A program made the translations under genes and the position numbers. Shown here piece after piece: positions 1-11,746 of a stretch of 64,000 nucleotides of DNA. The DNA is from Ensifer adhaerens (GTDB lineage Bacteria > Pseudomonadota > Alphaproteobacteria > Rhizobiales > Rhizobiaceae), in NCBI RefSeq assembly GCF_002940685.1, contig NZ_PNFP01000015.1, positions 124,001 through 188,000 of the forward strand, written 5' to 3'. The notes beneath the pieces were generated by a model that worked only from the letters and a program-made list of their open reading frames with translations, made no database searches and had not been told where the DNA came from. The stretch's first letter is position 1. Each line of letters begins with the position of its first letter.

Positions 1-149
1 GGCTTGCGAGCAGCAGCACGATCGATCCGGCCGACGCCGATCTCTGGTTCTGCGGCCCGCCACCCCTCAGGGAAGCGATTCTCAAGGGCCTGAAAGATCT
101 TGGCAAACGGCCGAAGCGGGTTGAGTTCGAACAGTTTCAGTTTCGATAG
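1..149 (+). CDS. C-terminal end of an FAD/NAD(P)-binding oxidoreductase (ferric-reductase-like), 5' truncated by window
   Basis: Only the last 48 codons are present, read from base 3 to the TAG at 147-149. The peptide contains DLWFCGPPPLREAILKGL and ends in EQFQFR. A W-F-C-G-P block followed by a short helix and an E..F..R end is how ferredoxin-NADP-reductase-type domains of ferric-reductase/NADPH-oxidase-like membrane proteins finish; the CGP segment lies in the NAD(P)-binding fold. The stop is 47 bp upstream of the multihaem cytochrome gene on the same strand, with no terminator hairpin between, so it may be the first gene of that operon and an electron donor to it. Family assignment from so short a tail is an inference; the membrane portion is outside the window. 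Confidence 0.55.
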   Translation, partial: LASSSTIDPADADLWFCGPPPLREAILKGLKDLGKRPKRVEFEQFQFR

Positions 150-196
150 AGCAGCTTATTTCAGTAGCGATTCTATTGTTTTAGGGAGTAGATTTC

Positions 197-3100
197 ATGC
201 GCGGTCTGCAGAGAAAGCGAGAAGGCGCCTCGTTATTGTCCGGCCTTGGCCGCGGATCCTTGGCCGTTTCATTGACGGCGCTGATCGCCATCTCGCTCTG
301 TCCCTCTGCCGCTTCGGCGCGTGATGCTTTTGCCGAGGATGCCTTCTCCACCTACAAGGCGAATGTCGACAACGGCAAATACATGTTCAACGCTGCGGGC
401 TGCGGCGCCTGCCACGGATCCGGCGACAATACAGAACTGCTCTCCGGCGGCATGCAGATGAACACGGCGATCGGCACCTTCTATGCGCCGAACATTTCGC
501 CGCACGCCAATGGCATCGGCGGCTGGACCAATGCGCAGTTTCTGAACGCCGTGCTGGTCGGTCTCGACCGGGAGGGTAACAACCTCTACCCGGTGATGCC
601 CTACACCTCCTATGGCGGGATGAAGCCGGAGGATGCGCTCGACATCAAGGCCTATATCGAGACGCTGCCGCAGGCGGACGCGGCATCGAAGGAGCATGAG
701 ATCGCTTTCCCCTTCAGCCGGCAGACGACGATTACGCTGTGGAAGCGCAGCCATTTCACGGTCCCGGCCTATCAGCCGCGCAAGGAGACGCAGGCCGAGC
801 GCGGTCGTTATCTGGTGGAGAATGTCGGCGGCTGCGGCGATTGTCACACGCCGCGCACGACCACCTACGGGGTGGACCTGGAGCGTTCCTATGAGGGCGA
901 GAAGGATCTGACCGGTGCGGTCGCGCCTGACATCAGCAAGACGAAGATTGCCGCTCTTGCGTCGCCCGAGGTCTTTACCAGGGGTCTTATCGAGGAGGGT
1001 AAGAAGCTTTCAGGCGCGCCGATCAGCGATCCTGTGATGCGGCGTATCGCCAAGGGGCTAAATGTTCTCTCGGACGACGATCGCCGCGCGATCTATGCCT
1101 TCCTCGCCGATCGCGAGGTGAAGGCGCCGGCGCCGGTGGCGCAGTCGGTCACCGCCGTCTGCAAGGAGAATACCGCGACCGAAGCGCTGGGTGGCGGCAA
1201 TGCGGCGCTGGCGCAGCAGGCCGACGCCTTCATCGGCAGATATTGCCGTAACTGTCACGGGCCGGGTGAAAGCTCGCAAGGAAGCTATCCGGCCGGTGAC
1301 CTCGCATCGATTGCAGCCGACGCCAATTTTGTCGTTCCCGGGGACGCCGCGAAATCCCGCCTCTACACGACCGTCGTCAGCGGTCGCATGCCGCTCGGCA
1401 AGCGTCCGTCCGCCGACGAGATCAAGGTGTTGGAGGATTGGATCACGGCGCTGAACGAAGAGAGCCTGCCGCAAACGGCCGCTGCCAAACCGGACCGGGC
1501 ACGGCCGATACTGACCTATGACCAGTTCGTCGCGGCGGCGCTCAAGGACATAGGGACGGTCAGCGCACTCGACCGGCCGTTCATGCGCTACTTCTCCTAT
1601 CGCGACCAGTACAACGGCATGATGGGCTGCGAGGATGACCAGACCTTCATGAAACGCATGGACGTGCTTGCCGGCGGCTTCAAGAAGCTTCTGAATTCGC
1701 TGTCCTACGGGCCAGAACTGGTCCTGCCGACGGAGGTCGACGGCACCAACGGCTTGCTGGTACGGGTCGATCTGCGCGAATTGCAATGGGACGCGGCGGA
1801 CTACGATTTCCTGATCAGGCGCTATTTCTATGGCGCCGATCCCGAGAGCGACGCGTCGCTTTCCGCACTCTCGAAGGAAACAGCGACGCAGTTGCCGATC
1901 ATGCGGGTCGACTGGTTCATGAGCAACGGTGCACGACCGGAGATCTACAACCGGCTGATGCGGCTACCAACCGAGATCGGCGAACTGGAAAGGCGCTTCA
2001 ACATCGACGTGGCCGACAACATACGCCGCCGCAACGTGCTGCGCGCCGGTTTCGCCGACGGCTCCTCCGGTGTTTCCGATCACAACCGCATGCTGGAGCG
2101 GCATGACATGCCCTTCGGCGGATACTACTGGAAGTCCTATGATTTCGGCGGCGACGTCGGCAAGCAGGTGCTGAAGCGCTTCCCGCACGGACCCAAGGAG
2201 CTGGCCCCGCTCGCCGCAGGACTTATGCCTTTCGAACACGACGGCGGCGAGATGATCTTCTCGCTGCCGAACGGCCTGCAGGGCTATTACCTCTCGACAT
2301 CCGCTGGCAAGCAGCTTGATGTCGGGCCGACGACGATCGTGTCGTTCCGCAAGCGTCCGATCGGCAAGGGGGTCGAGATCATCAATGCGCGTTCCTGCGT
2401 CGACTGCCACGCCGACGGCATCCTTTCGAAGCGCGACCAGTTGCGCGAGCAGATCGAGACATCGACGCTGTTCAGCAAGGACCAGCAGGACGTGCTGCTC
2501 GCCATGTATGTGAAGCAGGAGGAGCTGGACGAAGCCTATCGCAAGGACCGCGAGCGCTTCGTCAACGCGCTGGACGCGCTCGGGGTGACAGAGCCGACGC
2601 CTGATGGCGGCCTGCAGAGCAGGCACGCGCCGGGCGAGGCGGAGATCATCACCTATTTTGCCGACAAATACGAAGACGAGCTCGATTTCGACGCCCTGGC
2701 GGCCGAGTTCGACATGACGCCGAAGCAGTTTTCGGAAGCGATCAGGCGGGTGACGGACAGCGATGTCCTGCGCCTCGGGCTCGACTGGGTAACGACGCTG
2801 GAGGCGGGGGGAACCATTCCGCGCAACGAGGTCGAGCAGCAATATGCATTGCTGCTGGAGCCGCTCAGCCAACGCCGTCCGCTCGATACGGCGGCGCTGA
2901 TCGTCGCCGGTGCCGAGCCGGACGACGCAAAGCCGCAGTCGATCGCAGCTGCTGTTCCCGACTATCGCAAGCAGGATGCAGATTCTGGCAGCAAGCTCGC
3001 GCTGGTGCTGAACGTGAAGTCGACGACGGCAAAGGTCGGCGACGAGCTTTCCTTCGAACTCAGCGCCAACCAGGCCTGCGAGCTGCAGATCCTCTATATC

Positions 3101-3421
3101 GAGGAGAACGGCAACGTCGAGGTCATTCCGGATGTGATGATCGGCAACACGACATTGCAGCCGGGCGAACATCGTATGATCCCGCAGCCGGGGACGGGCA
3201 CGCTTGCCTTCGATACACCGGCGCCGGCCGAAACCATGCTGGCCTTCTGCCGGGCCGGCGGACTTGGCGATCAGAAGCTCACGGTGGAGAAGGCACGTGA
3301 ATATGTCGCGAAGTCGCGGTTGCCGCCGACACGGGGGCTGGCGATCAATCTGGCCAAGCGGGCGCAAGGCGATGGCGGCGCCAGCAGCGTTCAGATGGTG
3401 ACGTTCGAGATCACGGAATGA
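197..3421 (+). CDS. Exported multihaem c-type cytochrome with DUF4384-like C-terminal domain
   Basis: The 1074-residue protein starts with a Sec signal peptide (charged MRGLQRKR, hydrophobic stretch, probable cut near residue 42 after AASA). Four CxxCH haem-binding motifs are visible: C69-GA-C72-H73, C213-GD-C216-H217, C350-RN-C353-H354 and C734-VD-C737-H738. The first three fit ordinary cytochrome c domains. The fourth is embedded in a long domain (about 450-860) that I cannot name; it contains GGYYWKSYDF and FSLPNGLQGYYL and ends in the ARSCVDCHADG haem site. Residues 930-1030 resemble DUF4384, a domain often attached to bacterial caspases. A GGGAG-type ribosome site lies at about 182-187. 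The OmpA-like and caspase genes follow immediately, so it is likely the redox component of a periplasmic complex. Substrate and partners are unknown. Confidence 0.85.
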   Translation: MRGLQRKREGASLLSGLGRGSLAVSLTALIAISLCPSAASARDAFAEDAFSTYKANVDNGKYMFNAAGCGACHGSGDNTELLSGGMQMNTAIGTFYAPNISPHANGIGGWTNAQFLNAVLVGLDREGNNLYPVMPYTSYGGMKPEDALDIKAYIETLPQADAASKEHEIAFPFSRQTTITLWKRSHFTVPAYQPRKETQAERGRYLVENVGGCGDCHTPRTTTYGVDLERSYEGEKDLTGAVAPDISKTKIAALASPEVFTRGLIEEGKKLSGAPISDPVMRRIAKGLNVLSDDDRRAIYAFLADREVKAPAPVAQSVTAVCKENTATEALGGGNAALAQQADAFIGRYCRNCHGPGESSQGSYPAGDLASIAADANFVVPGDAAKSRLYTTVVSGRMPLGKRPSADEIKVLEDWITALNEESLPQTAAAKPDRARPILTYDQFVAAALKDIGTVSALDRPFMRYFSYRDQYNGMMGCEDDQTFMKRMDVLAGGFKKLLNSLSYGPELVLPTEVDGTNGLLVRVDLRELQWDAADYDFLIRRYFYGADPESDASLSALSKETATQLPIMRVDWFMSNGARPEIYNRLMRLPTEIGELERRFNIDVADNIRRRNVLRAGFADGSSGVSDHNRMLERHDMPFGGYYWKSYDFGGDVGKQVLKRFPHGPKELAPLAAGLMPFEHDGGEMIFSLPNGLQGYYLSTSAGKQLDVGPTTIVSFRKRPIGKGVEIINARSCVDCHADGILSKRDQLREQIETSTLFSKDQQDVLLAMYVKQEELDEAYRKDRERFVNALDALGVTEPTPDGGLQSRHAPGEAEIITYFADKYEDELDFDALAAEFDMTPKQFSEAIRRVTDSDVLRLGLDWVTTLEAGGTIPRNEVEQQYALLLEPLSQRRPLDTAALIVAGAEPDDAKPQSIAAAVPDYRKQDADSGSKLALVLNVKSTTAKVGDELSFELSANQACELQILYIEENGNVEVIPDVMIGNTTLQPGEHRMIPQPGTGTLAFDTPAPAETMLAFCRAGGLGDQKLTVEKAREYVAKSRLPPTRGLAINLAKRAQGDGGASSVQMVTFEITE

Positions 3422-3431
3422 TGGGCAAGCC

Positions 3432-4334
3432 ATGGCAACGGTGATGAAGCCCCTCATACTCGCCTCGCTGTTGGCGCTCCCTGTGGCCCTGCCGGCGACG
3501 GCCTGCGACGCCGTTCGCCAGGCGTCCGAAGCGCTGAACAGCGGCGACAAAACGACGGCGCGCGCGGCGGCCGGTCCCGACCGGACGGCTGGGTGCTCCG
3601 CTGCCGAAATCGCGCTGACCCGTCGCGTCGCGGCGCTTGCGACCTTCAACCGCGTGGTGGCGGCCGTGGGGCAGGGCGCCAAGCTTGAGAGCTTCGAAAC
3701 AGAACTCACGTCTGCCAGCCGCGATGCCGGCGGCCCCTGGCAGATCCTCGATGCGCTCGGCGACATCAACCGCGAGCGCAAGGACTATGATGCGGCAGGG
3801 ACCTTTTATCAGCAGGCACTGGAGGATGCGGCCAACGAAGAGCTGACGCCCGATTGGATGGCGCCGGATAGGGCGTATATCGAGCGGCTGGACCGGTTGG
3901 CTTCGGAAATGCGGCTCGCTGCGAGCAAGCCCGTCAAGCTTGCCACACGCGGTGCCTGCAGGTTCTCCTATCGCGGTGTTGCGATCCGGAAGAAGGCGAC
4001 GCCGGTGCGTTACGTCTTCGGCACCGCCGAGTTTACGCCCGAAGGCCTAGAGTCGGCCAAGGATCTGTTCGAGTGCCTGAAATCGGCAAAGCCGGCGGCG
4101 ATTACGCTGATCGGCCATACGGACCCGGTCGGCACCCCTGAGGCAAACATGGCGCTCTCCGTCGCCCGCGCAGAGGCCTTGGCGCAGTATCTCGTCGATG
4201 CCGGCTACCCCGGCAGCTGGAGCGTGGTTGGCAAGGGCGAGGAGGAGCCGTTCAAACCGGATGACCCGAGCGCCTATAGCGAGGAGATGCTGCACCAGCT
4301 CGACCGGCGCGTGGAAGTGGACGTGGGGAAATGA
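3432..4334 (+). CDS. OmpA-family peptidoglycan-associated protein with TPR-like N-terminal part
   Basis: This 300-residue exported protein has a short signal peptide (MKPLILASLLALPVALPATA within the first 25 residues; the ATG at 3444 would give a tidier start). A TPR-like helix pair (DYDAAGTFYQQALEDA, about 115-135) is followed by an OmpA C-terminal domain at about 175-300. The GHTDPVG loop carries D231 and the ALSVARAEAL helix carries R246, the Asp/Arg pair that binds diaminopimelate of peptidoglycan in this family. It begins 10 bp after the cytochrome gene and its stop overlaps the first caspase start (ATGA), so it is probably translationally coupled and may anchor the complex to the cell wall. 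The N-terminal Cys after TATA is not a good lipobox. Confidence 0.85.
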   Translation: MATVMKPLILASLLALPVALPATACDAVRQASEALNSGDKTTARAAAGPDRTAGCSAAEIALTRRVAALATFNRVVAAVGQGAKLESFETELTSASRDAGGPWQILDALGDINRERKDYDAAGTFYQQALEDAANEELTPDWMAPDRAYIERLDRLASEMRLAASKPVKLATRGACRFSYRGVAIRKKATPVRYVFGTAEFTPEGLESAKDLFECLKSAKPAAITLIGHTDPVGTPEANMALSVARAEALAQYLVDAGYPGSWSVVGKGEEEPFKPDDPSAYSEEMLHQLDRRVEVDVGK

Positions 4335-5884
4335 CGGTCACGCGCAAGATCCTTCTGGCCACAGCCTTGCTGGCCTTGCCCGCAGCCTCGGCAATGGCTG
4401 CGACCTCGGCGCTGGTCGTCGGCGTCGATACCTATCCGCATGAAGTAAGCCTCGATGGCGCCGTCCGCGACGCGCGCGACGTCACGCAGGCGCTGAAGGC
4501 GGCTGATGTCGGCCCGATCCGCCAGTTCATCAATGACCAGGCGACCAAGGAGGCGATCCGCACGGCCTGGGTGGAACTCGTGACGGCTGCAGCTCGCGGC
4601 GACACGATCCTCTTCACCTATGCCGGCCATGGCGCGCAGATGCCGGAACTGGTCGCCGGCAGCGAGGAGGACGGGCTTGACGAATTCCTGGAACTGCCGG
4701 GCTTCGACCGGGCTCGCCTGGAGCAGACGGCAGGCGAAGTCATCATCGACAACGAACTCAGCGCCTGGTTTGCCGAAGCCGAGGCCAAGGGCATTCATGT
4801 GCTGTTTGTCTCCGACAGTTGCTATTCCGGCGGTATGAACCGATCCATATCCGGAAAGACGCGGCTGGCGCCGATGGTTCGCGCCAAGGTGCCGCCGCCG
4901 TCCAAGGAGGCGCTTTCCGGCGCCAAGGTGAGGGATGTGGAGCTGTCGCAGGTGACGATCCTCGCGGCGTCGCTCGAAAGCCAGCCGACGCCTGAGGTGG
5001 TAATCGGCGGCGAGCCGCGTGGCGCACTGAGTTGGAGTTTTGCCCGCGCGCTTGAAGGCGCAGCCGATCTGGATGGCGACGGGCGGATTTCCCGGGTCGA
5101 ACTCGAGGATTACGTTTTCTCCAACGTCAAACTGCAGTCGGAAGCCTTGCAGATACCGAACTTCACGCCGCAACTGCCGCGATCCGACAAAGAGATCGTG
5201 CTGTCCCTGCCGCGCAGCGCCAAGGTCGGCAGCGCGGGAACGGCGGGCGCGACGATGTCCGGACTGACGTCGCCGCGCGATCTCGGATGGACGGGCAAAC
5301 TGCCGTTGAGCGTCGTCGGTGAAAGGCCTGATCTTGCCAATGTCGGTGGCGATGGCGTGCCATACCGGTGGGAGGAGGCGTCCGGTGTATTCTATACGCC
5401 GAACGGTGATGTCGCCGGCGAGCACGTTGCGCCGGATATGGTGCAGCGCGTCGTCGACAAGTTCATCCTCGTCGATTTCCTGAAGGCGATGGCAGCACAG
5501 AGCCCCGGAACGGTTTCGCTGAAGCCTTTCAAGGATATCTACCTTGCCGGCGATCGGCTGACATTCGAGGCCGATCAGGGCCGCTACGCAAACATGCTGG
5601 TTTTCAACCTGGCAAACACCGGCGAGGCGCAGCTTCTCGACGTGCAGACTGCCGGAAGCGACAGCCACACCTTCAGGCTTCAGGGGCTGGAGGTGGTGAA
5701 GCCATTCGGCGCCGATCACCTCGTGGTGATATCGACCGACGCGCCGATCGATGCGATCGCCGCTGCCTTCTCCAACTCCAGCCTCGATTCAGCATCGCTG
5801 CTGCGGCTGCTGGAAACCCGGTTGGAGGGCAGCGAAAGTACGATCGCGATCCAGCCACTGTACACGAGGGATCAGGGTCAATGA
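4331..5884 (+). CDS. Exported caspase-family (peptidase C14) protein with intact His/Cys dyad and EF-hand loop
   Basis: 517 residues. A signal peptide (cut near residue 23, SAMAA) precedes a caspase-like fold starting at TSALVVGVDTYP. The catalytic pair is present: H100 in FTYAGHGAQ and C164 in VSDSCYSGG, with the Asp two residues before Cys typical of metacaspase-like enzymes that cut after basic residues. Residues D246-E257 (DLDGDGRISRVE) match the 12-residue EF-hand calcium loop exactly, with Ile at position 8 and Glu at 12. The C-terminal part (about 395-490, GDRLTFEADQGRYANMLVFN) resembles DUF4384. It overlaps both neighbours by ATGA. Substrate is unknown; the next gene, a dyad-defective paralogue, is an obvious partner. 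A periplasmic location follows from the signal peptide and is inferred. Confidence 0.88.
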   Translation: MTVTRKILLATALLALPAASAMAATSALVVGVDTYPHEVSLDGAVRDARDVTQALKAADVGPIRQFINDQATKEAIRTAWVELVTAAARGDTILFTYAGHGAQMPELVAGSEEDGLDEFLELPGFDRARLEQTAGEVIIDNELSAWFAEAEAKGIHVLFVSDSCYSGGMNRSISGKTRLAPMVRAKVPPPSKEALSGAKVRDVELSQVTILAASLESQPTPEVVIGGEPRGALSWSFARALEGAADLDGDGRISRVELEDYVFSNVKLQSEALQIPNFTPQLPRSDKEIVLSLPRSAKVGSAGTAGATMSGLTSPRDLGWTGKLPLSVVGERPDLANVGGDGVPYRWEEASGVFYTPNGDVAGEHVAPDMVQRVVDKFILVDFLKAMAAQSPGTVSLKPFKDIYLAGDRLTFEADQGRYANMLVFNLANTGEAQLLDVQTAGSDSHTFRLQGLEVVKPFGADHLVVISTDAPIDAIAAAFSNSSLDSASLLRLLETRLEGSESTIAIQPLYTRDQGQ

Positions 5885-7404
5885 CCAGGTGCTGCGACAG
5901 GTGGATTTCGGGGCTGATCGCGCTTGTCTGCGTGATGACGCTTGCCGCTCCGGTCTTGGCGGCTGACCGGGCGCTGCTCATCGGGATCGGGCGCTTCGAG
6001 AACTTGCCGGCAAGGTTCGCGCTGAATGGTCCACCGAATGATCTTCGGGCAATGCAGGCGCTCCTGACGGAGCGGTTCGGTTTCGATGCCTCGTCGATCC
6101 GCGTCTTGCAGGATGAACAGGCGACGCGCGCGGAGATACTTGCATCGATGAACACCTGGCTCGTCGATGAGACCGAGCCGGGCGATCGCGTCTATCTCTA
6201 TTTCTCGGGCCGTGGCCTGCAAGTGAAAGATGCGGACGGCGACGAGGAGGACGGACTGGACGAGGCGTTGGCGCCGTTCGATATCGGTGAAGGCGAAAGC
6301 GAGTGGCAAGGAGCGATCCTCGACGACGAAATCGACCGGACACTCGAGCGCCTGAAGGGGCGGGCCGTTACGGTGGTGATCGATGCCTGCCATTCCGATA
6401 CGATCTCGCACCCGCGCGCCGGAGATAGCGCAGCGGGCGCCGAAGGCGCGCGTTTCCTGCCGCGCCCCGGCGCCAAGCCGGTCGAGCGAACCCTGACCCG
6501 TGGCCTTAGAATTGACCTTGCGGTCATCGACAAGCCGCAGCTGCTGGACACCGGAGTGACCGCCTGGAGTGCGGCCGCGCCCCAACAGGTGGCCTGGGAC
6601 GACATGCGGCATCCCGCGCCCGAGCGGCATGGCGTGTTCACGTCCGCTTTCATTGCCGGTCAGATGGACAGTGTTGCGGACGGCAACGGCAACGGGCTGA
6701 CGAGCAACGCCGAACTGCTCGAGTTCGTGAAGGCGCAATCGAACGCATACTGCGCGTCGCAGCAGACGTGCGGCAACCTCGATCCTCAACTGGAGACCAA
6801 GGCGCAAACGCTGGGCGACAGCGTCGTGGCGCCGGACGGGGCCGGCGGCAACGGGCCGGGCACCTACCAGCAGGCGAACGGCGAAAGCGTGGCCCACCCG
6901 GTCTATCAGGATGCCAATGCGGTCTACGCCGTCAGCGACATCGTCGGCAAGGCCGAGACCGGCGACGTCGACATTGCCCTTGATCGTCCGACGACGATGA
7001 GGGCCGGTGACGTTTTCAAGCTGACCGTCATCAGCCGAACCGGGGGCGACCTGCTGCTTTTCGATGTCGACGCCAAAGGAAAGGCGACGCAGATTTTTCC
7101 GAACGAATTCGCGCGGACGATTACGCCCCTTGCACCGGACGTGCCGCTGACGCTGCCGGACGACTATTACGGTTTCGATTTCGAGGCTTCGGGCGAGGGG
7201 GAAAACGTCTTCGTCGCGCTTGTCGTCAGTGACGCCGTCGATCTGAACGAGGTTGCGCCACGGGAGCGCGGGCTCAAGGTCGAGCTGAACGCGCGGGAAA
7301 CCCTGGGCGAGGTCGTGGCGCGGCTGCAGAAAACCTGGGCGGATGATCTCGACCGGCGCGGCATCCGCTGGTCCGTTGGCACGTTGCGCTACCGTGTGGA
7401 GTAG
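5881..7404 (+). CDS. Exported caspase-like protein with catalytic His replaced by Arg (probable pseudoprotease)
   Basis: 507 residues. A signal peptide (to about residue 28, APVLAA) is followed by a caspase fold beginning DRALLIGIGRFENLP. At the expected YFSGHG site the protein reads YFSGRGLQ: R111 is encoded by CGT at 6211-6213, one base from the His codon CAT. The Cys is kept (C170 in VVIDACHSDT), but the usual Gly after CHS is Asp173. The DADGDEEDGLDEAL stretch, typical of bacterial caspases, is present. A degenerate EF-hand-like loop (DGNGNGLTSNAE) spans 267-278, and the C-terminus (about 360-460) looks DUF4384-like. It overlaps the active paralogue by ATGA and is the last gene before the terminator. 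A regulatory or scaffolding role is inferred; the alternative is a non-canonical dyad. Confidence 0.85.
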   Translation: MTRCCDRWISGLIALVCVMTLAAPVLAADRALLIGIGRFENLPARFALNGPPNDLRAMQALLTERFGFDASSIRVLQDEQATRAEILASMNTWLVDETEPGDRVYLYFSGRGLQVKDADGDEEDGLDEALAPFDIGEGESEWQGAILDDEIDRTLERLKGRAVTVVIDACHSDTISHPRAGDSAAGAEGARFLPRPGAKPVERTLTRGLRIDLAVIDKPQLLDTGVTAWSAAAPQQVAWDDMRHPAPERHGVFTSAFIAGQMDSVADGNGNGLTSNAELLEFVKAQSNAYCASQQTCGNLDPQLETKAQTLGDSVVAPDGAGGNGPGTYQQANGESVAHPVYQDANAVYAVSDIVGKAETGDVDIALDRPTTMRAGDVFKLTVISRTGGDLLLFDVDAKGKATQIFPNEFARTITPLAPDVPLTLPDDYYGFDFEASGEGENVFVALVVSDAVDLNEVAPRERGLKVELNARETLGEVVARLQKTWADDLDRRGIRWSVGTLRYRVE

Positions 7405-7430
7405 GGTGGGCGTGCGATCTCCCAACTGAA

Positions 7431-7456
7431 AAAGCCCGCCTGGATGGGCGGGCTTT
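7431..7456. terminator. Bidirectional rho-independent terminator between caspase operon and aapP
   Basis: A perfect 10-bp stem (AAAGCCCGCC / GGCGGGCTTT) with a 6-base loop is flanked by an A-run on the left and T-rich sequence on the right. It lies 26 bp after the second caspase stop and 21 bp after the leftward aapP stop, so it can end both convergent operons. Confidence 0.85.
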
Positions 7457-7477
7457 CTTGTGAGGCTCTTGCCGATC

Positions 7478-8254
<777 letters not shown>

Positions 8255-8271
8255 GCGATCCTCCCCTCATT

Positions 8272-9429
8272 TTATCGTTTATGGGCCGTGTCGAGCACGC
8301 GTTCCATGAAACCTGAATAGCGCGACATACCAAAGCAGAAAAGCCAGAATATGAAGCCAGCGAAAATTAGGCCGGAGATCGGCGTGACCGAAGAGGCCCA
8401 GTTGGCGTCGGTGAAGTTGAAGCGGACGATGCCGAGCAGGTCGAACATGCCGATGATCGACACCAGCGACGTGTCCTTGAAGAGACCGATGAAGGTGTTG
8501 ACGATGCCGGGGATCACCAGCTTCAGCGCCTGCGGCAGCACGATGAGGTTCATCTTCTGCCAGAAGCTGAGACCGAGCGAATCCGCGCCTTCATACTGCC
8601 CCTTCGGGATCGCCTGCAGGCCGCCGCGCACCACTTCCGCCATATAGGCGGAGGCAAAGAGCGAGACGCCGATCAGTGCGCGCAGGAATTTGTCGAAGGT
8701 GACGCCCTGCGGCAGGAACAGGGGCAACATGACGCTCGCCATGAAGAGCACGGTGATCAGCGGGATGCCGCGCACCAGTTCGATGAAGGCGGTGCAGAGC
8801 ATCTTGATCACAGGCATGTGCGATCGCCGCCCCAGGGCCAGAAGGATGCCGAGCGGCAAGGACACGGCGATGCCGACGAACGAGAGGATGAGCGTCACCA
8901 TCAGGCCGCCCCAGAGCGGCGTTTCGACGAAGGTCAGCCCGAACCAGCCGCCGGGAAGCAGGATCAGGGAGATGATCGGCAGCACGGCGAAAAGCAGGAT
9001 GGCGTTGATGCCCTTGAATGGCGCCTTCGGGATCAACATCGGAACGAGGAAAAGCACGAAGAGGATACCGACCAGCGTCGGCCTCCAGCGCTCGTCGAGC
9101 GGGTAACGCCCGTAGGCGAACTGGTCGAGTTTTGCGTTGACGAAGGCCCAGCACGCACCGCTCCAGCCATCCGGCTGCGAGCCTCCCTGCGCAACCGTGG
9201 CGCAAACGCCGCGGCCGCCGCCGGTCCAGGCGGCGTCGATGAAGAGCCATTGGATCGCCGGGGGCACGAACCACGCAAGCGCAAGCAGGCTGACGATGGT
9301 AAGCACCGCATCCTTTGGCGTCGCGAACAGGTTTTCGCGCAGCCAATGGACGACGCCACCCTCCGCGACCGGCGGGGCGGACCCCTCGATCATCGAGGCA
9401 CGAACGAAAGTTCCCTGGTGTGTGTTCAT
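8272..9429 (-). CDS. aapM: General L-amino acid ABC transporter, permease AapM
   Basis: The 385-residue inner-membrane permease of the His/Glu/Gln/Arg/opine family has several hydrophobic segments. The permease EAA-type loop falls in the region reading [24 protein letters not shown] near the C-terminus. I start it at MNTHQGTFV; an in-frame start 33 bp upstream exists but would overlap aapQ. The N-terminal membrane segments are separated from the permease core by a long periplasmic insert containing several Trp and Cys residues, as in other Aap/BztC-type permeases. It starts 4 bp after the aapQ stop and pairs with AapQ to form the translocation channel. Confidence 0.94.
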
Positions 9430-9433
9430 TGTC

Positions 9434-10627
9434 TTATCTCTCCACCAGGGCCATGCGGGCATTGAACCAGTTCATGAACAGCGATGTCGTCAGGCTCAGC
9501 GACAGGTAGACGATGATCCAGATCGTGACGATTTCGATCGACTGCCCCGTCTGGTTGAGGATCGTTCCGCCCACAGCCACGAGATCGGCGTAGCCGATGG
9601 CGACGGCGAGCGAGGAGTTCTTGGTGAGGTTCAGATACTGGCTTGTGAGCGGCGGAATGATGATCCGGAGCGCTTGCGGAACCACCACCAGCCGCGTCGT
9701 GAGGCCCGGGCGGACACCGAGCGCGTGCGCGGCTTCCGTCTGCCCCTTGGATACGCCGCGGATGCCGGCGCGCACGATTTCTGCGATGAAGGCGGCCGTG
9801 TAGAACGAAAGCGCCAGGAACAGCGACAGGAATTCCGGGCCGATGACCGAGCCGCCGGTGAGGTTGAACTTGCCGGCGACGGGGACGTCGAACGTGATCG
9901 GCGATCCCGTGGCAAGGAAGACCAGCAAGGGCAGGCCGATTATCAGGCCGACTGACGACCAAAGAACCGGGAAACGCTGTCCGGTAGCCTCCTGCTTCTT
10001 GCGCGCATAGCGTGCCAGGAGGAAGCTGGCGACGATCGCGAGGACAAGGGCAAGAACCGTGTACAGCGAGCCGTCGCCAAAGATCGGTTTGGGAAAGGCA
10101 AGGCCGCGGTTGTTGAGGAACATGTTGAACGGCAGGGCTGCCGATTCACGCGGCTGCGGCAAAATAGCCAGGACGCCGCTGTACCAGAAGAAGATGACCA
10201 GCAGCGGCGGGATGTTGCGGAAAATCTCGACATAGGCGAGCGACAGCTTGGCGATCAGCCAGTTGTGCGACAGGCGGCCGATACCGACTGCAAAGCCGAT
10301 GATGGTGGCGGTGAAAATACCGCAGACGGCGACCAGCAATGTGTTGAGCAGGCCGACGACAAGCGCGCGCTGATAGGTGGAATCGCTGGTATAGGCGATC
10401 AGCGACTGCCCGACGTCAAAGCCGGCGCGTCCATTCAGGAAGCCGTAGCCGGAAGCGATATTCGCCCGTTTGAGATTCTCGATCGTGTTGTCGGCCACCC
10501 AATAGACGAAGGCCCCGAGTAGGACGACGGTGATGACCTGATAAAAGATGCCGCGGACCTGCGGGTCGTTGATGATCGACCCGGACGGTTTCGATTTCTC
10601 AGGCGTAGTTGTGACGCCAATCGCCAT
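9434..10627 (-). CDS. aapQ: General L-amino acid ABC transporter, permease AapQ
   Basis: The 397-residue polytopic permease is the partner of AapM. The EAA-like loop reads [18 protein letters not shown] and is followed by the conserved [14 protein letters not shown] segment. The start at [11 protein letters not shown] is preceded by an AAAGAGG ribosome site at good spacing; an upstream GTG in frame (10651) is less likely because it would use the ribosome site as coding sequence. It is separated from aapJ by 93 bp containing two strong hairpins, which probably set a lower expression of the permease than of the binding protein. Confidence 0.94.
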
Positions 10628-10648
10628 GCAATGCCTCTTTCCCCTTTT

Positions 10649-10702
10649 CACCCTTATGGGTGTTTTTATCGTTGGGATGGGGAAGCGGTTGTCCGCTTCC
10701 CC
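10649..10702 (-). promoter_or_regulatory. Two intercistronic hairpins between aapJ and aapQ
   Basis: A perfect 10-bp inverted repeat (GGGGAAGCGG at 10679-10688, CCGCTTCCCC at 10693-10702, 4-base loop) and a second perfect 5-bp repeat (CACCC at 10649-10653, GGGTG at 10658-10662) sit in the 93-bp gap. In aap transcript sense neither is followed by a clear T-run, so a 3' stabiliser or partial processing/attenuation site after aapJ is more likely than a full terminator. High binding-protein to permease ratio through such hairpins is known for other ABC operons; here it is inferred. Confidence 0.6.
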
Positions 10703-10720
10703 TGGTCGTGTCGGCTCGCC

Positions 10721-11746
10721 TTAGCGGACCGGCGGAGCGTACTGGATGCCGCCCTTGTTCCACAGCGCGTTGAGGCCGCGCTCGATCTTGAGCGGGCTGC
10801 CGGCGCCGATGTTGCGATCGAAGACTTCGCCGTAGTTGCCGACGGCCTTGATCACGTTCACGGCCCACTCGTTGGTGAGGCCAAGGTCGGTGCCGATCTT
10901 GGTGTCGGCCTCGACGCCGAGGAAGCGCTGAACGTCCGGGTTGGTGGACTTCTTCATTTCTTCGACGTTGGCCTGGGTGATGCCGAATTCTTCAGCCTGG
11001 ATCAGGGCGTAGTGGGTCCAGCTGACGATATCGAACCACTGGTCGTCGCCCTGGCGCACGGCCGGGCCGAGCGGCTCCTTCGAGATGATTTCCGGAAGGA
11101 TCATGTGATCGTCCGGCTTCGACAGCGTCAGACGCAGCGAATAGAGGCCGGACTGGTCGGTCGTGTAAACGTCGCAACGGCCGGCGTCATAGGCGGCGTT
11201 GACTTCTTCAAGCTTCTCGAAGACGACCGGATTGTACTGCAGGTTGTTCGACTTGAAGTAGTCGGCGAGGTTGAGTTCGGTGGTGGTGCCCGTCTGCACG
11301 CAGACAGCCGCGCCCGAAAGCTCCAGCGCCGATTTCACGTTCAGGCTCTTGCGAACCATGAAGCCCTGGCCGTCATAATAGTTGACCGGGCGGAAGTTGA
11401 AGCCGAGCGCGGTGTCGCGGTTGATCGTCCAGGTGGTGTTACGGGCAAGTACGTCGACTTCGCCCGACTGCAGCGCCGGGAAGCGTTCCTTGGCGGAGGT
11501 CGGCGTGTACTTCACCTTGCTGCCATCCGCGAAGATCGCGGCGGCGATTGCCTTGCAGTAGTCTACGTCGAAGCCGCTCCAGTTGCCCGAAGCGTCGGGC
11601 GCTGCAAAGCCGGCGAGGCCGGTGTTCACGCCGCACTGGACGAAGCCCTTTGCCTTGACGTCATCAAGAGTAGCGCCCGAAGCCGCCTGTGTGCCAATCC
11701 CCATGACAGCGGCGCCAACGAGAGCTGTCAGAATTCTTTTTGCCAT
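10721..11746 (-). CDS. aapJ: General L-amino acid ABC transporter, periplasmic binding protein AapJ
   Basis: The 341-residue solute-binding protein has a signal peptide (MAKRILTALVGAAVMGIG, probable cut after ASG/ATL near residue 25). The body starts TLDDVKAKGFVQCGVNTG, and the family-3 binding-protein signature lies in GFDVDYCKAIAAAIF. Paired Cys residues (for example in CGVNTG and DYCKAIA) could form disulfides. It heads the aapJQMP operon and faces metC divergently across 340 bp. Periplasmic amino-acid capture for AapQMP is the established role. Confidence 0.95.
   Translation of the reverse strand: MAKRILTALVGAAVMGIGTQAASGATLDDVKAKGFVQCGVNTGLAGFAAPDASGNWSGFDVDYCKAIAAAIFADGSKVKYTPTSAKERFPALQSGEVDVLARNTTWTINRDTALGFNFRPVNYYDGQGFMVRKSLNVKSALELSGAAVCVQTGTTTELNLADYFKSNNLQYNPVVFEKLEEVNAAYDAGRCDVYTTDQSGLYSLRLTLSKPDDHMILPEIISKEPLGPAVRQGDDQWFDIVSWTHYALIQAEEFGITQANVEEMKKSTNPDVQRFLGVEADTKIGTDLGLTNEWAVNVIKAVGNYGEVFDRNIGAGSPLKIERGLNALWNKGGIQYAPPVR

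Follow-up and report, generated by a model that had tools for sequence, protein, structure and literature searches.

To our knowledge, neither the NOX-family enzymes of bacteria nor most of their caspase homologues have a settled role. Among the closest described systems, OmpA was reported in 2012 in 14 metacaspase operons, together with a protease/protease-inhibition metacaspase operon of Rhizobium (PMC3501461), and the pseudo-orthocaspases of Alphaproteobacteria were described as carrying a Gln-Cys dyad, an N-terminal trypsin domain and a C-terminal DUF4384 domain, in a paper whose searched text contains neither "gene neighborhood" nor "operon" (PMC6426788). SpNOX, the NADPH oxidase of Streptococcus pneumoniae, produces superoxide and in detergent also reduces cytochrome c directly, with lower efficiency and possibly with FAD itself as a direct reductant (PMC5676040). 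Here a 64,000-nucleotide stretch of Ensifer adhaerens DNA (the window; contig NZ_PNFP01000015.1, positions 124,001 to 188,000) was analysed, at the start of which a NOX-like reductase gene (FRE) is followed by genes for a tetrahaem cytochrome (CYT), an OmpA-domain protein (OMPA) and two caspase homologues (CASP and the second caspase) (Table 1). The locus thereby ties caspase homologues to a NOX-family enzyme in Rhizobiaceae. The five-gene set is well supported by sequence comparison as one conserved unit; gating by redox state is inferred. Such a set raises the possibility of a connection, beyond the inner membrane, between the flow of electrons and proteolysis by caspases.

Conservation of the neighbourhood carries this finding. 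Relatives of CYT residues 345-905 are encoded at 488 places in a pattern scan of species genomes, of which the best 80, ranked by closeness to the query and thus biased to near kin, were compared as named loci. The exact FRE-CYT-OMPA-caspase-caspase order recurs in 45 of these best 80, a few of them with fragmented frames (L080, L092, L122), and 10 further loci hold one close caspase rather than two; within 6 kb of CYT, FRE is found on the same strand in 77, an OmpA gene in 78 and a caspase in 72. The initial annotation had staked its single-system reading on homologues being neighbours elsewhere, and they are. A less biased sample of the order comprised 297 genomes, at least 33 of which (own included) encode the CYT module, and the other 32 loci were compared. 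There, an OmpA gene lies within 6 kb of CYT in 22 loci, a caspase in 16 and both on the CYT strand in 12, with 8 of the 32 CYT loci lying within 6 kb of a segment end. A strict score assigned FRE-CYT-OMPA-caspase-caspase and FRE-CYT-OMPA-caspase to one locus each, CYT-OMPA-caspase-caspase to two, caspase-caspase-CYT-OMPA to five, FRE-CYT to three, and OMPA-caspase-caspase-CYT, caspase-CYT-OMPA and CYT-OMPA to one each, so that CYT, OmpA and caspases occur in three relative orders. The caspase-first loci (L052, L056, L057, L139, L141) carry a separate upstream dihaem cytochrome gene resembling the CYT N-terminus. Where FRE-CYT lacks a close CASP relative, an OmpA gene and a caspase of a more distant kind are often present on one side or the other, Neorhizobium petrolearium being an example. 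Beyond the order, a class sample of 337 genomes (own included) yielded one more with the CYT module, again beside FRE, OmpA and caspases (L150). As background, the 7.5-Mb genome encodes six caspases (two of them here) and eight OmpA proteins (one here), and the far flanks of the compared loci hold three caspases and two OmpA genes in 235,860 bases. The link of CYT to OmpA and caspases is frequent and not obligatory.

Table 1. Features of the five-gene run, in window positions
Feature	Position	Strand	Description
FRE, C-terminal end	1..149	+	Whole gene at L007:10890-12149, 419 aa; SpNOX-like ferric reductase/NADPH-oxidase family
CYT	197..3421	+	1074-aa tetrahaem cytochrome, signal-like N-terminus
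Haem-binding CXXCH 1 (C69)	401..415	+	CYT
Haem-binding CXXCH 2 (C213)	833..847	+	CYT
Haem-binding CXXCH 3 (C350)	1244..1258	+	CYT; invariant in alignment A1
Haem-binding CXXCH 4 (C734)	2396..2410	+	CYT central module; invariant in alignment A1
DUF4384 of CYT (aa 946-1017)	3032..3247	+	Conserved C961, C1018
OMPA	3432..4334	+	Signal-like N-terminus, C-terminal OmpA domain
CASP (first caspase)	4331..5884	+	Signal-like N-terminus, His100/Cys164, DUF4384-like C-terminal domain
DUF4384-like domain of CASP (about aa 391-474)	5501..5752	+	hhalign to second-caspase tail 91%
Second caspase	5881..7404	+	Signal-like N-terminus, Arg111/Cys170, C-terminal DUF4384
DUF4384 of second caspase (aa 374-448)	7000..7224	+	Pfam E 1.6e-9; also found in genome search
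Terminator-like hairpin	7434..7453	+	3' of second caspase gene; two overlapping consensus matches

The four genes from CYT onward stand as first annotated, and Pfam agrees with them. What had been called a reductase tail does end at position 149, 47 nucleotides before the CYT start, but it belongs to a whole, intact fifth gene that starts outside the window; since this gene is complete and the genes downstream of the second caspase sit on the opposite strand, the run comprises five genes. The start of each caspase gene overlaps the preceding stop by 4 nucleotides, the ATGA overlap noted before; with starts set mechanically, no other single spacing is as common in homologues (22 gene pairs for OmpA to caspase and 31 for caspase to second caspase). 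Simple scores are also in keeping with four signal-peptide proteins: the N-termini from CYT to the second caspase each show a hydrophobic segment together with a possible cleavage site, which reads Val-Leu-Ala in the second caspase and Ala-X-Ala in the other three. For CYT the hydropathy peak is modest.

FRE combines the Pfam domains Ferric_reduct (PF01794), FAD_binding_8 and NAD_binding_1 with six hydrophobic segments, counted as transmembrane by hydropathy alone. All 84 aligned rows share, without change, the FAD motif HPFT and the histidine pairs H71-x13-H85 and H144-x12-H157; at the NAD-motif positions conservation reaches 98-99%. Its closest solved relatives are 8qt6, 8qq7 and 8qta (phmmer E 1.1e-41 to 3.3e-41), aligned from residue 32 or 33 to 407-418; among them 8qq7 (E 2e-41, residues 32-408) is SpNOX F397W (PMC11031084). 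Six transmembrane segments, two haem-ligand histidine pairs and FAD and NAD(P)H motifs, by which NOX/SpNOX proteins are recognised, are thus all found in FRE. With these motifs it could draw on NAD(P)H in the cytoplasm and pass the electrons, by way of FAD and two b haems, to the far side of the inner membrane.

CYT consists of an N-terminal dihaem region, a third haem domain, a central module (residues 430-905) and a C-terminal DUF4384 domain. Its reading as a tetrahaem-motif cytochrome holds: four CXXCH motifs are present in CYT and in 90 of 93 full-length homologues, Pfam recognises cytochrome c domains, and the motifs together with the signal-like N-terminus characterise a multihaem c-type cytochrome (simple score). 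Residues 43-320 resemble the cytochrome subunits of dehydrogenases, with 7w2j chain C as the best match (E 7.5e-36). For the central module (window 1484-2911) no Pfam family was matched in this protein; over 18 relatives cytochrome c families alone recur, other families appearing weakly in one or two members, and matches to PDB sequences are limited to the haem domain at the module start. In the alignment of 18 CYT-family sequences over residues 345-905 (A1), 63 columns are invariant, and a near-invariant arginine (R92 of A1, residue 436) lies just upstream of the central module. The CYT DUF4384 domain scores 26.4 bits against a Pfam cut-off of 27 with the whole protein and 31.2 bits, above the cut-off, in the genome search; C961 is kept in 94 of 94 rows and C1018 in 93 of 94.

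This domain recurs in the caspases. Pfam detects DUF4384 in two proteins of the 7.5-Mb genome, CYT and the second caspase, both encoded at this locus. The CASP tail gives no DUF4384 match by Pfam itself, its likeness coming from profile comparison, in which it matches the tail of the second caspase at 91%, while the second caspase matches CYT at 93%; in the controls, none of 30 column shuffles per pair exceeded 1.8% and no unrelated profile exceeded 0.4%. At the level of sequence, then, a C-terminal domain of one kind, DUF4384 or DUF4384-like, is common to CYT and the two caspases.

An Asp/Arg pair in OmpA domains binds wall peptide. OMPA has such a C-terminal domain (PF00691, E 3.1e-13), in which D231 and R246 are present in all 75 rows with letters (two rows are gapped), so that the protein qualifies as a predicted OmpA-like peptidoglycan anchor, as had been proposed. 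C25 is kept in 73 of 77 rows and C55 in 74 of 77.

Both caspases carry the Peptidase_C14 p20 domain (PF00656; E 2e-10 in CASP, 1.2e-21 in the second caspase), and the closest solved sequences to the CASP family profile are metacaspases. CASP, with H100/C164 in the motifs YAGHG and DSCYSG, combines a p20 domain and an intact dyad as orthocaspases do; the second caspase has the p20 domain and R111/C170 in SGRG and DACHS. The pairing of a dyad-intact with a dyad-defective caspase, noted in the initial annotation, is therefore real in this genome and not conserved. Among close relatives above the score limit, more distant caspases being left out, the dyad is His-Cys in all 69 CASP-family rows with letters (window included; one fragment lacks letters), in 19 of 20 CASP relatives from loci without the CYT module, and in 59 of 70 second caspases (two fragments lack letters), the remainder being Arg-Cys (the window), Gln-Cys, His-Gly, Leu-Gly, Glu-Ser and Gln-Ser. 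A pseudocaspase as a conserved partner is rejected on these counts and on the scatter of the losses. On a quick tree with weak deep branches and several long ones, the second-caspase dyad changes state six times, and loci named Ensifer show Arg-Cys (window), Gln-Cys (L064) and His-Gly (L065) on separate tips. A dyad-defective caspase can thus be a recent, repeated state and not an ancient fixed partner. The change from His to Arg occurs in the window sequence alone among those compared, its nearest relative L058 being His-Cys. Codon 111 is CGT here against CAC in L058, L059 and L060, so that a sequencing error of one base would not account for the change.

Pairwise ratios of nonsynonymous to synonymous substitution (dN/dS) against L058 are 0.217 for the second caspase, 0.095 for CYT, 0.189 for OMPA and 0.175 for CASP, and the second caspase has values of 0.12-0.22 wherever one copy of the pair is dyad-less, which indicates purifying selection on the copy here. 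With its open frame and dN/dS of 0.217 it gives no support to a decaying pseudogene, and with its dyad substituted and the protein retained it corresponds to a pseudo-orthocaspase, although its family is mostly His-Cys. Catalysis by the second caspase would then be dispensable and its presence mostly not, which fits a partner role. All 16 genomes of the genus have a second-caspase homologue, which is fragmentary in one. Separately, in Ensifer sesbaniae (L084 13647-14470) the second caspase is reduced to two 135-residue remnants, and the other four genes have open frames.

The OmpA-caspase-caspase trio was also followed without CYT. CASP relatives (E <= 1e-25) were found in 39 of the 297 order genomes; 20 stretches lacking the CYT module were compared, four of them from genomes that carry it at another place, while a further 12 genomes have CYT on the same contig and 7 were left out. 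Among proteins chosen from the CYT-less loci, 7 of 10 neighbours or trio members (six loci) match DUF4384 by Pfam, in L172, L173, L179, L181 and L184; trypsin-like proteases occur among them, with trypsin fused to the second caspase in L184, and the second-caspase relatives of L182 and L184 have a Gln-Cys dyad. On pRL11 of R. johnstonii 3841 (L199 3918-13365), a DUF4384-OmpA protein, a caspase, a trypsin-caspase-DUF4384 protein with a Gln-Cys dyad, a serpin and a kinase stand in a row, the first four with signal-like N-termini and the kinase without (simple score). The CASP family profile (E <= 1e-50) is found in 11 of 349 phylum-sample and 4 of 337 class-sample genomes, own included. Six genomes of other classes gave seven loci, in five of which the match lies beside a different caspase-family gene; no OMPA-caspase-caspase trio was seen at these seven loci.

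Several observations stand apart from these comparisons. A Neorhizobium petrolearium plasmid (L201 2077-9019) encodes a caspase with its own peptidoglycan-binding domain, an OmpA protein, a reductase and a c-type cytochrome, and in L105, L125, L126, L128 and L150 (Cucumibacter, Rhodobacteraceae-type) additional caspase genes of more distant kinds lie after or around the run, like local caspase arrays. A mobile origin was considered and set aside: the central CYT module occurs on one plasmid record and CASP relatives on 93, all below 60% identity. On the minus strand, convergent to the run, lie genes of an amino-acid-type ABC transporter (window 7478-11746; ATPase and binding protein by Pfam, permeases by eye). 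Upstream (L007 2922-8059) are CysG-like and sulfite/nitrite reductase-like genes (by eye) and an FNR-like oxidoreductase gene, the sulfite/nitrite reductase-like and FNR-like genes being retained in 36 of 48 related loci. Terminator-like sites number 8 in positions 1-8400 against a shuffle mean of 6.7, so there is no enrichment, and the hairpin at 7434-7453 is a consensus match only.

A single system, as the initial annotation had proposed, is the best reading of the gene set on sequence grounds, because the neighbourhood is conserved, the proteins look exported and OMPA keeps its wall-binding residues. Its most probable form, to which we give somewhat more credence than doubt, is a conserved envelope redox-protease unit in which a wall-anchored caspase pair with a redox arm is docked by DUF4384. 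FRE would take NAD(P)H electrons across the inner membrane and feed CYT; the DUF4384 tails would bring CYT into contact with both caspases and these with each other; and OMPA would hold the assembly at the wall. CASP, whose dyad is nearly always intact, would be the protease, and the second caspase, since its activity was lost repeatedly while the gene was usually kept, would be mainly a structural or regulatory partner. Most likely, the redox state of CYT would set caspase activity in the envelope, although the redox-triggered protease of the initial annotation is still a fair but unproven hypothesis. The related trio loci have other partners (a trypsin fusion with a serpin, other DUF4384 proteins), so that CYT can be read as the input specific to this lineage, in a caspase platform that is itself more general. 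The locus predicts action in the periplasm at the wall, docking through DUF4384, CYT as a candidate to accept electrons from a bacterial NOX homologue, and asymmetry within the caspase pair. More tentatively, and with doubt outweighing confidence, electron flow might switch the envelope caspase pair: FRE would charge a wall-docked CYT, whose redox state would be read by DUF4384, the second caspase repeatedly becoming a regulatory pseudoenzyme. If so, a family of envelope caspase platforms would share DUF4384 for docking and differ in their inputs, which could be exchanged (cytochrome, trypsin/serpin and others). Against the envelope redox-protease unit weigh the choice of the 80 named loci by closeness to the query; the scarcity of FRE near CYT in the order sample (5 of 32 loci, within 6 kb); CYT without close OmpA or caspase partners in 17 of those 32 loci by the strict score; the 12 of 20 CYT-less stretches that hold OMPA, CASP and the second caspase in a row on one strand; the weak match of the CASP tail to that of CYT (26%); a first caspase that is His-Gly in L186 and apparently defective by motif in L195; and pairwise dN/dS values that also average over the period preceding dyad loss. 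Neither half needs the other everywhere, because CYT occurs alone and the trio occurs without it.

The main rival, which we hold to be improbable, reverses the roles: CYT would be the effector, and the caspases would control the maturation, turnover or wall attachment of a NOX-fed periplasmic redox enzyme, by proteolytic processing or as quality control. CYT does appear to have a function of its own, because some Hoeflea/Roseibium loci (L108-L111, L124) have FRE-CYT and no caspase detected within 6 kb; the 63 invariant columns of A1 and the unnamed family of the central part of CYT also speak for this rival. Orthocaspases are described as cutting after positively charged residues (PMC6426788), and the near-invariant arginine before the module would offer such a site, but it may be merely structural; moreover, the trio exists without the CYT module in those 12 stretches, and servicing CYT is therefore not its sole role. 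That each module occurs alone would also suit a null reading, unlikely in our view, in which FRE-CYT and the OmpA-caspase pair came to be adjacent in one clade by chance and are functionally unlinked. The exact five-gene order is concentrated in Rhizobiaceae, and the named loci were picked by closeness, yet the link recurs in other gene orders and distant relatives (L041, L048, L052, L054-L057, L139, L141, L144, L147, L150) and outside the order (L150, Rhodobacteraceae loci), and both modules share a domain that Pfam finds only here in the genome.

Just as unlikely is an oxidative-stress or cell-death device, in which FRE would produce superoxide as an NADPH oxidase and the superoxide, scavenged or sensed by CYT, would trigger the caspases. 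FRE is indeed similar over nearly its full length to the superoxide-making SpNOX (PMC5676040); nevertheless, sequence cannot tell oxygen from cytochrome as the acceptor, the adjacent cytochrome gene argues for direct transfer, and no death phenotype was found in paper searches, the sole place looked. An anti-phage or abortive-infection caspase system has very little probability left. The generic caspase model of PADLOC matches both caspases, but beyond this it gives only weak MotB and TPR matches for OMPA, and no specific anti-phage caspase model was satisfied (PADLOC; NCBIfam EACC1-associated caspase at 36 and 44 bits against a cut-off of 140). The signal-like N-termini, the genus-wide presence of the second caspase and the flanking genes kept in many related loci (the FNR-like gene among them) also speak against defence, which was rejected on the PADLOC result, this presence and the kept neighbours.

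Compared with known systems, the FRE-CYT part of the envelope redox-protease unit recalls MsrPQ, in which a ferric-reductase-superfamily membrane protein passes electrons to a periplasmic redox protein; unlike MsrPQ, this locus adds caspases and a wall anchor, and FRE bears its own FAD and NAD domains. The N-terminal dihaem region of CYT is like that of the cytochrome subunits of fructose, aldehyde and alcohol dehydrogenases (7w2j, 8gy3, 8gy2), but CYT goes on with a third haem domain, a module that binds haem by its motif and has no family name, and DUF4384; no matching dehydrogenase subunit was seen beside it at this locus. FRE shares six transmembrane segments, two histidine pairs and FAD/NAD motifs with SpNOX (PMC5676040, PMC11031084) and differs in that its gene stands in a row with those of a tetrahaem cytochrome and caspases. 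Like the pseudo-orthocaspases of PMC6426788, the second caspase joins p20 to DUF4384 and has lost the catalytic His; unlike them, it is Arg-Cys, has no trypsin match by Pfam and has dyad-intact near relatives, and it falls outside the trypsin-QC-DUF4384 class, with which the second caspase of R. johnstonii 3841 agrees.

The claim of the initial annotation that no characterised system combines these elements needs dividing. OmpA-containing metacaspase operons have been in print since 2012 (PMC3501461), and some of the 14 probably correspond to the trypsin-caspase and trio loci. For the NOX/tetrahaem-cytochrome form with caspases, no report was found in searches of open PubMed Central papers, so that the electron-transfer combination is, as far as seen, apparently new, while OmpA-containing caspase operons and trypsin-caspase relatives are already in print. 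The R. johnstonii 3841 pRL11 row, which probably is the Rhizobium protease/inhibition operon of that 2012 report (PMC3501461), has no cytochrome or NOX-like gene in its 13.4-kb stretch, and it differs further by the trypsin fused to a Gln-Cys second caspase, the serpin, the kinase and an OmpA protein with its own DUF4384; it shares with the Ensifer locus an OmpA-domain protein, a His-Cys caspase and a second caspase with a DUF4384 tail, in the same order.

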